NCBI RefSeq assembly: GCF_001660815.1
Contig: NZ_LYMI01000078.1
Location: forward strand, 62,001 to 126,000
DNA: 64,000 nucleotides
From: Xanthomonas nasturtii
GTDB lineage: Bacteria; Pseudomonadota; Gammaproteobacteria; Xanthomonadales; Xanthomonadaceae
Reading direction: 5' to 3'
Below are positions 49,638-63,672 of the stretch, piece by piece. Within the stretch, counting starts at the first letter, position 1, and each line of letters begins with the position of its first letter. Below the pieces are notes generated by a model that saw only the letters and a list, made by a program, of their open reading frames with translations, had not been told where the DNA came from and searched no databases. Made by a program: the position numbers and the translations under genes.

Positions 49638-49641
<4 letters not shown>
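49165..49641 (-). CDS. greA: Transcription elongation factor GreA
   Basis: Protein of 158 residues that rescues backtracked RNA polymerase by stimulating transcript cleavage. It has an N-terminal coiled coil (about 10-75) with the acidic tip region [20 protein letters not shown] and a C-terminal globular FKBP-like domain (about 82-156). ATG 49641 overlaps the carB stop by four bases. The upstream in-frame extension lies within carB. Confidence 0.96.
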
Positions 49642-52880
<3,239 letters not shown>

Positions 52881-52881
52881 T

Positions 52882-53286
52882 TCAGCTCCGGGACCGGGGA
52901 CCGGGGAACGGGGACCCGGACTCCAACTTCTGATTGAGTGAGTAGTGCAACTTGTGCAGCATTTTGCTGACACGCTCGGCGACATCCAGGACGATTTCGA
53001 CCTGATGCGGCTCAGCCAGCGCGAGCTCTGAAGCAAGTGTCAACTGTGTTTGTAATTCTGCAACCGAACCACGCGCGATCGAAATAAATCGCGCATAGTC
53101 CTTGGTCGAACCGCGAGCATTTCCTTCGGCGATGTTGGAAGGCACCGAGACTGCAGCGCGCTGCAGCTGCGACGAAAGTCCATAACGTTCTTCACGCGGA
53201 AACGCGCCAGTCAGTTCGTAGACCATCTTCGCCAGCGTCATTGCAAGACGCCAGACTTCCAGTTCGCGGAAATGCGAAGGGCTCAA
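52882..53286 (-). CDS. Four-helix-bundle protein, S23/IVP family, inserted in carAB
   Basis: Protein of 134 residues of the 23S rRNA intervening-sequence (S23/Avd-like) family: [21 protein letters not shown], the conserved [29 protein letters not shown], then amphipathic helices. It starts at TTG 53286, overlapping the carA stop (TTGA). Its stop lies one base before the carB ATG. The last 11 residues ([11 protein letters not shown]) are encoded by the left heptamer array, not by the fold. Family members are often carried in rRNA insertions or retroelements, and their roles are unclear. The flanking 30-bp inverted arrays suggest a mobile cassette now co-translated with carAB. Confidence 0.9.
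52890..52919. repeat. Heptamer array, left arm of the S23 cassette
   Basis: Four GGGA-type heptamers on the + strand (GGGACCG twice, GGGAACG, GGGACCC) plus GG. It is the inverted counterpart of 53297-53326 with two mismatches in 30. The four G3 runs with four-base spacers fit the classical G-quadruplex pattern on the + strand. It encodes the C terminus of the S23-like protein on the - strand. Confidence 0.9.
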
Positions 53287-54437
53287 GCATTGCCACCCGG
53301 GTCCCTGGTCCCCGGTCCCCGGTCCCGCATCAGCGCGGTGAACCGATCAAACAACGGCCCCACGTCGCGCGGGCCCGGCGAGGCTTCCGGGTGGCCCTGG
53401 AACGAGAACGCCGGTGCGTCGGTCAGTGCGATGCCCTGGTTGGTGCCATCGAACAGCGAACGATGGGTCACCCGCACATTGGCCGGCAGCGTGGTCTCGT
53501 CCACCGCAAAGCCGTGATTTTGCGAAGTAATCATCACCCGCCCGCCGTCCAGATCCTGCACGGGATGGTTGGCACCATGGTGACCGGTGGCCATCTTCAC
53601 CGTCTTCGCGCCAGCGGCCAGCGCCAGCAACTGATGGCCCAGACAGATGCCGAAGGTCGGCACCTGCTTGGCGATCAATTCCTTGATCGCGTCAATGGCG
53701 TAATCGCAGGGTTCCGGATCGCCCGGGCCGTTGGACAGGAACACGCCGTCGGGCTGCATCGCCAGCACTTCGGCCACCGGCGTGCGGGCCGGCACCACGG
53801 TGACGTCGCAACCACGATCGGCCAGCATGCGCAGGATGTTGAGTTTCACGCCATAGTCATACGCCACGACTTTGTGCTTCAACTCGGCGCGTACGAAGGT
53901 GTCGGAATTGAGATCCAGCGAGCCTTCCTGCCAGCTGTAGTTGCTCTCGGTCGAGACCACCTTGGCCAGATCCATGCCCTTCAGGCCGGGGAAGTTGCGC
54001 GCGGCTTCCAGCGCCTTGTCGACATCGATCTCGCCGGCCATCAGCGCACCGTTCTGAGCGCCCTTCTGGCGCAGCAGGCGGGTCAGCTTGCGGGTGTCGA
54101 TGCCGGAAATGGCGACGACACCGCGGGCCTGCAGCCATTCCGGCAAGGCCACCTGGCTGCGCCAGTTGCTGGGACGACGCGGCACATCGCGCACGATCAG
54201 GCCGGCGGCCCAGATCTTGCGGGCTTCGTCGTCCTGGTCGGTAAAGCCGGTGTTGCCGATATGCGGATAGGTCAGCGTGACCATCTGGCGGGCGTAGGAG
54301 GGATCGGTCAGGACTTCCTGATAGCCGGTCATGGCGGTGTTGAACACCACTTCACCGACGGAAAGCCCGTTGGCGCCTACGGATTCGCCCTCGAACACGG
54401 TGCCGTCTTCGAGGACAAGGATTGCGGGTTGGGTCAC
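53283..54437 (-). CDS. carA: Carbamoyl-phosphate synthase small subunit
   Basis: Glutamine amidotransferase of 384 residues that feeds ammonia to CarB. It has the N-terminal CPSase small-chain domain and a C-terminal class I GATase with the catalytic Cys in [13 protein letters not shown] and His/Glu in [11 protein letters not shown]. The start is GTG at 54437 ([19 protein letters not shown]). The last residues ([14 protein letters not shown]) come from the right heptamer array, so the protein is about 10 residues longer than an uninterrupted carA would give. The stop overlaps the S23 start. An open frame running to 55148 is a shadow. Confidence 0.96.
53297..53326. repeat. Heptamer array, right arm of the S23 cassette
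   Basis: Inverted copy of 52890-52919, differing at two of 30 positions and 377 bases away. On the - (coding) strand it carries four GGGA-type heptamers, so the carA mRNA end would be G-rich. It lies inside the carA C-terminal coding region. Confidence 0.9.
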
Positions 54438-63574: not shown

Positions 63575-63672
63575 GGGAATGGGGGATCGGGAATGGGGAA
63601 TCGTAACGACGCCCTACTCTCAGTGCCCCGGCCCCGGCTTTTTCGATTCCCTATTCCCAACTCCCGATTCCC
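63575..63672. repeat. Inverted heptamer arrays in the yeiP leader
   Basis: The left arm 63575-63603 and right arm 63644-63672 are inverted 29-base copies (24 of 29 match) built from GGGAATC/G-type heptamers, with a 40-base centre. The right arm ends at the base before the yeiP ATG, so no Shine-Dalgarno is present. It is the same family as the arrays flanking the S23 gene. Confidence 0.85.

Follow-up and report, generated by a model that had tools for sequence, protein, structure and literature searches.

Why should a core biosynthetic operon of Xanthomonas nasturtii carry, between carA and carB, a gene of the S23/IVP family framed by inverted arrays of a heptamer? The window, which is the whole stretch of 64,000 nucleotides that was analysed, had been read before from its letters, and that sequence-only reading proposed a cassette with inverted ends of its own, mobile or domesticated. 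The features on which the question turns are listed here by position in the window.

52882..53286, minus strand: S23/IVP four-helix-bundle gene, 134 aa, TTG start (PF05635, E=1.2e-37; nearest solved structure XCC0516, PDB 2gsc, E=5e-29).
53297..53327, minus strand: upstream arm, G-rich on the coding strand (GGGACCG GGGACCG GGGACCA GGGACCC), doubling as the CarA C-terminus.
52889..52919, minus strand: downstream inverted arm, C-rich on the coding strand, doubling as the S23 C-terminus.
53283..54437, minus strand: carA (PF00988, E=3e-53), with a GTG start picked from the sequence.
49638..52880, minus strand: carB (PF02786, E=5.2e-111), with its ATG one base past the S23 stop.
63589..63672, no strand assigned: second inverted heptamer element, GGGAAT type, without S23; left end approximate.

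The gene and its surroundings are as the earlier reading described them. The S23 frame is intact, and its PF05635 match covers positions 1-105 of the 106 in the profile (128.8 bits against a cut-off of 33.8), a match over the full length that makes it a member of the S23/IVP family; TIGR02436 matches it as well. For this family a structure has been solved and no function is known, according to PMC4990558. The neighbours are, by Pfam, the small and large chains of carbamoyl-phosphate synthase, and the three genes are joined as tightly as had been proposed: the carA stop and the start codon of S23 share TTGA at 53283-53286, and the stop codon of S23 (52882-52884) lies one base from the carB ATG at 52880. 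The arms, previously scored as matching at 28 of 30 positions, measure 31 nt each, are built of GGGACC-type heptamers and are 94% complementary; their G-rich strand reads into the S23 gene, and in the folded cassette RNA they pair as a terminal stem (z=-6.0). Pfam returned PF05635 only, and no recombinase domain, for the cassette gene, and no Rfam family reached its gathering threshold in the 9 sources searched.

Three GGGANNN units in a row were found at 6 places in the window, whereas 100 dinucleotide shuffles gave an expectation of 0.02, four of the matches lying in the carAB cassette and two in the element at 63648-63672. The genome of the window (4.87 Mb in 89 contigs) holds 185 matches to four such units in a row and none to the reversed pattern, so that the arrays are not a property of the carAB cassette alone; the excess in the window and the empty reversed control rule out chance or low complexity as their source. 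Inspection by eye of 20 array places, picked mostly for looking paired, gave 17 inverted pairs, with spacers that differ among them and in one pair a degenerate left arm, two lone arrays and a second S23 gene. Both S23 matches of the genome lie within inverted arrays. No S23 match came from the 14 control genomes, E. coli among them. The GGGAAT-type element of the window directly precedes the start codon of an efp-like gene, a name that is our own reading.

Across the Xanthomonadaceae, the number of arrays is associated with the presence of S23. Among 149 genomes, 64 with S23 and 85 without, the median number of GGGANNNx4 matches is 97.5 in those with the gene and 0 in those without; in genus-stratified permutations over the 20 mixed genera the observed difference was reached in 0 of 20000, and 17 of the 20 genera show the same direction. 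Seven genomes without S23 hold at least 20 GGGA matches (125 in G136), and ten genomes with S23 hold fewer than five GGGANNNx4 matches; in nine of these ten the S23 ends were examined and consist of other or weak units. In some genomes the reversed pattern fails as a clean control: it matches 131 times in G066 and 108 times in G151; the S23 ends of G066 read AGGGCTT, and this genome has 11 GGGANNN matches against 131 to the reversed AGGGNNN.

The repeat unit at the S23 ends also matches that of the dispersed arrays. In genomes that have S23 at carAB, four in all, GGGACC matches number 43, 41, 38 and 54 (own arms included), the four highest counts among the 35 genomes of the genus; in the other 31 there are none in 21 and 1-24 in 10. 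Pairing follows the same division: in the nine fully listed genomes, a set outside which G000 (the genome of the window), G026, G027, G029 and G032 fall, inward inverted pairs account for 39 of 53 GGGACC arrays in the carriers G013 and G015 and for 6 of 45 in seven non-carriers. Where S23 ends carry the unit GTGAWT, dispersed GTGAWT arrays were found in all seven family genomes examined (16 to 512 matches); such arrays, in any number, occur in 27 of the 149 family genomes, 6 of the 27 being without S23. Among 29 distant genomes, TAGTNAR matches 404, 450 and 70 times in the three that have this unit at their S23 ends, 80 times in another Selenomonadaceae genome and twice in a Treponema, and not at all in the remaining 24, other Selenomonadaceae included; the reversed TAGTNAR control matched in four other genomes of the 29.

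Three genomes deserve separate mention. G025, a member of the genus with no S23 match, has 24 matches in nearly uniform GGGACCC arrays, 19 of 21 of them unpaired, which could be the product of slippage growth following the loss of S23. A single long uniform GTGATTC array (G106:C7:172672-172765) was seen in another genome without an S23 match. In G187, the genome of locus L124, 69 matches to the reversed control come from a dispersed 7-nt repeat unlike its S23 ends.

The same architecture recurs across phyla. One genome per species was scanned and the best 80 of 287 relatives were kept, a choice that biases the phylum sample toward query-like S23; these 80 come from Xanthomonadaceae, Selenomonadaceae, Planctomycetota, Chloroflexi, Lentisphaerae, Treponema, Clostridiales and others. 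One locus lacking a left flank (L131) was removed. The heptamer flanks that the earlier reading proposed to look for at other S23 genes were indeed found: arrays stand at both ends of 61 of the 79 remaining loci, as against 6 of 230 control genes of the same loci, with a period of 7 or 14 in 57 of 79 (controls 6/230) and of 8 in 4 of 79 (controls 0/230). The other 18 loci fell below the array threshold, some of them with weaker arrays by eye. Of the 61 loci with arrays at both ends, 58 have a G-rich arm upstream and a C-rich one downstream, and the median array is 4.4 units long in 102 well-scoring arms. The unit itself varies among loci (GGGACCG, GGGGAAC, AGGGACA, TAGTNAG, ACTAGGA, GAGGGGA), while the two ends of a locus match each other: the match to the own arm exceeded that to swapped arms, with 0 of 5000 permutations reaching it over the 79 loci and likewise over the 49 non-xanthomonad loci. 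The own partner arm was strictly the best for 20 of the 79 loci and in the top 5% for 49. Within the family but outside the genus, where 60 of 80 non-Xanthomonas S23 places were examined, 44 of the 60 satisfied a similar both-end rule and 16 missed it. S23 also occurs on plasmids (28 matching records); of the 13 examined, 12 of them cyanobacterial, 9 pass the cross-phylum threshold with a period of 7, 8 or 14, and all 13 pass a laxer threshold that has no control. The phage collection held no match to S23, and with 28 plasmid records matching we reject a phage origin.

Sites of S23 are few and shared. The 62 family loci placed (60 outside the genus and our own two) occupy 12 sites; 55 of them fall at five shared sites and 7 are single. 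The largest site, before a biotin-carboxylase gene (Pfam, for our own copy), holds 29 loci, and the others are a third junction (11), carAB (10), the start of an nrdR-like gene (3) and a response-regulator-like gene (2), the last two being names by our own reading. Of the 31 S23 loci examined within the genus, 27 occupy the carboxylase site and 4 carAB, and flank similarity places all 30 loci of one set (L082-L111) at carAB. This concentration at few shared sites indicates that S23 is mostly inherited in place, and its genes seem to move rarely. At an orthologous site the unit differs among genomes with both arms changing together (0 of 10000 permutations for the carboxylase-site loci, n=28, and again for the carAB loci, n=30); at rsmH|ftsL concerted change was not significant (510 of 10000, n=9).

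Relatives differ in which sites are filled and which are empty. These comparisons were made by eye, and gene names besides carA and carB are our own reading. The empty carAB sites sought on the strength of the earlier reading do exist: the two genes abut in G035, G078 and G100, three of the 15 S23-free junctions examined outside the genus. In 31 of the 35 genomes of the genus, sequence other than S23, often of about 450 nt, stands at carA|carB, and this varied fill makes the junction resemble a general insertion hot spot; the fill without S23 is of several kinds (L163-L191, L295-L299). At ispD|ispF, read in 34 of the 35 genomes, an element is present in 9. Clean cores number 8, 7 and 5 in the carriers G000, G013 and G026, with no element in the carrier G015, and among non-carriers 4 in G010, G019 and G020, 5 in G012 and G025 and fewer than 3 in G017; array decay following S23 loss is only a trend in these counts, and the carrier G026 is itself partly degraded at the site. 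At murC|ddl, read in 21 genomes, the GGGACC pair is full in G000, G015, G032 and G010, of which G032 and G010 have no S23 beside carA and carB, reduced to remnants in G013, G026, G025 and G029 and absent in 13. The element there sits in the first codons of the ddl-like gene (L043, L352, L355, L356), so its arms would be translated. Filled and empty sites differ by replaced short tracts; the target-site duplications that a mobile cassette had led one to look for were not seen by eye at carAB, ispD|ispF or murC|ddl.

We consider the likeliest account, on balance, to be a two-part dispersed-repeat system made up of the S23 gene and its cognate heptamer arrays. The first part would be an S23 gene flanked by inverted arrays, each of some four or five heptamer copies; the second would be cognate arrays at gene junctions, often as inverted pairs around a variable spacer. 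S23 would act in trans and be mostly inherited vertically and in place, while the hairpins are dispersed. It may spread or maintain the arrays, perhaps as a ring that binds the repeats and leaves the spreading to host enzymes. Once S23 is lost, arrays would lose their pairing and decay. The 23S rRNA intervening sequence (IVS) with an S23 ORF would then be the case of such an element sitting in an rRNA gene. The findings suggest that S23 and heptamer arrays together form an undescribed kind of dispersed genetic element. The association in itself demonstrates neither causality nor insertion in progress.

Because an association gives no direction, the main rival holds S23 to be a passenger: slippage of the polymerase, gene conversion or some unrelated mobiliser would create and spread the arrays, and S23 would persist where arrays exist, adopting the local unit by recombination. 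This we judge unlikely, if still deserving of serious attention. Arrays do occur without S23, as in the seven S23-free genomes with at least 20 matches, and slippage is on record for heptanucleotide repeats, PMC4679880 quoting it as the explanation of other heptamer repeats. Allelic recombination can also account for the fourth junction, where all 28 genomes read have an element, partly degraded in some, and where three types with differing units and spacers occur, even between G006 and G007. A passenger would not, however, be expected to show unit-specific co-occurrence inside one genus, or the excess of arrays at S23 over the 230 control genes; inverted pairing is, moreover, lower in the sampled genomes without a matching S23, and the units around S23 in many phyla are unrelated to one another. 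As to what builds the arrays, a G-quadruplex as the general common cause is doubtful, given that TAGTNAR, GTGAWT and AAACCTG, by our own reading, have no GGG tract.

A second rival places the function in RNA, and as a sufficient explanation we find it improbable. Transcribed hairpins would be bound by S23 or cut by RNase III and kept as processing or regulatory sites, S23 being a domesticated RNA-binding protein that does not spread. The terminal stem of the carAB cassette RNA and the position of arrays at operon junctions agree with it, as do published observations: the Coxiella IVS, with its 28-bp stem and the heptamers that precede its S23 ORF, is excised by RNase III (PMC4990558), and most repeats of this kind are transcribed (PMC4692102). 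Taken alone, it leaves the hundreds of copies, the turnover of units and the empty sites in relatives unexplained, although a role in RNA processing may coexist with spreading. The autonomous S23 cassette, hopping by means of its own inverted ends as the sequence-only reading had it, is very improbable: 12 sites among 62 loci, plasmid copies and junctions without S23 speak for it, but the concentration of 55 loci at five sites, the single S23 match in 48 of the 64 S23-positive genomes and the lack of a recombinase domain and of visible target duplication speak against it. What stands of that claim is an element-like structure with empty sites and recurring flanks; what does not is the independence of its ends, which belong to a genome-wide repeat family, and its mobility, movement seeming rare. 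The observations are better described by a stable trans gene, with dispersed repeats that depend on it, than by a self-hopping cassette.

In an alignment of 139 S23 proteins, from which frames with stops were excluded, W12, Q40, S47, E54, G55 and E77 are conserved at 1.00 after rounding and R43, N51, R58 and S74 at 0.96-0.99. At the second S23 site in the genus the median dN/dS is 0.23 (311 of 351 pairs), which places the protein under purifying selection. The title of Lin 2006, as cited, describes 2gsc as five four-helix bundles. S23 may form pentameric rings that spread repeats, one heptamer to a subunit. Together with host enzymes, and with neither a recombinase nor a reverse transcriptase of its own, such a ring would write, copy and homogenise inverted arrays of its unit; we offer this picture tentatively, and hold it somewhat less probable than not. 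Array writing by an encoded reverse transcriptase or telomerase-like enzyme is unlikely: PF00078 had no match in the genome of the window, and among the 149 family genomes it was found in 28, with 13 of the 64 S23-positive genomes having it and 51 not.

In its population logic, though not in its machinery, the S23 system would be analogous to REPIN/RAYT. As described in PMC8049555, that system likewise combines a trans gene, present in one copy and passed on vertically, with dispersed repeats that are inverted around a variable spacer, and repeats are more numerous in genomes with the trans gene, as seen here over 149 genomes (0/20000). The trans gene of the cassette, however, is an S23 four-helix bundle with PF05635 only, not a tyrosine transposase, and its repeats are tandem 7-mers. 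Intervening sequences of 23S rRNA resemble the cassette in having an S23 ORF within complementary ends, and in Coxiella heptamers beside that ORF (PMC4990558); the long stem of complementary ends that characterizes an IVS is present at carAB (31 nt, 94%), whereas the cassette lies between the protein genes carA and carB rather than in 23S rRNA and its ends also form a genome-wide population. PMC10053308 states that Avd of diversity-generating retroelements (4DWL) and 2GSC are homologous, and S23 matched NF033474 weakly, at 24.6 bits where the cut-off is 80; a diversity-generating retroelement has a reverse transcriptase, whereas PF00078 had no match in the genome of the window.

The heptamer repeats and the S23 fold are already known, and it is the link between them that appears to be new. 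Rehm 2015 (PMC4692102) described repeats of the same kind, GGGAATC/GGGGA(C/T)T, in Xanthomonas and Nostoc: 186 in Xcc and 183 in Xac, with 70 and 75 inverted pairs, mostly of four units and near gene ends, 83% of the Xcc repeats having the same context in Xac. That work found the repeats to be generally without association to mobile elements. The increased stability that it reports near them, and the shared context, count against the two-part account. The main text of that work has 0 mentions of 'S23' or 'four helix', and a link between S23 and heptamer arrays was not found in the literature searched, which did not include bioRxiv preprints and most subscription journals. Heptamer repeats have been viewed as products of slippage or as G-quadruplexes. 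The present account ties together three loose ends, namely the S23 family, the heptamer repeats and the ORF found in intervening sequences of rRNA. Should S23 prove to drive the repeats, bacteria of many phyla would possess another REPIN-like system, unrelated to the first, and one could tell the repeat family of a genome from the unit at its S23 ends. As a repeat-spreading factor, S23 would explain the abundance of seven-letter repeats in bacterial genomes, its own occurrence in rRNA genes, in cas operons and at carAB, and the purpose of the IVS ORF. A single small protein suffices to put the link to a direct test.

Three further loci touch on the range of the system. On cyanobacterial plasmids, S23 genes with heptamer or octamer arrays stand at cas10|cmr3 and cas6|cas4 junctions (L365, L363). 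In cas loci, 18 IVP genes have been reported (PMC3936711), and the plasmid loci may explain them; if S23 drives the repeats, these genes would more simply be read as junction elements than as CRISPR parts. A contig of Microbulbifer litoralis (L088) carries a Xanthomonadaceae-like carAB S23 cassette, the result of either transfer or contamination.
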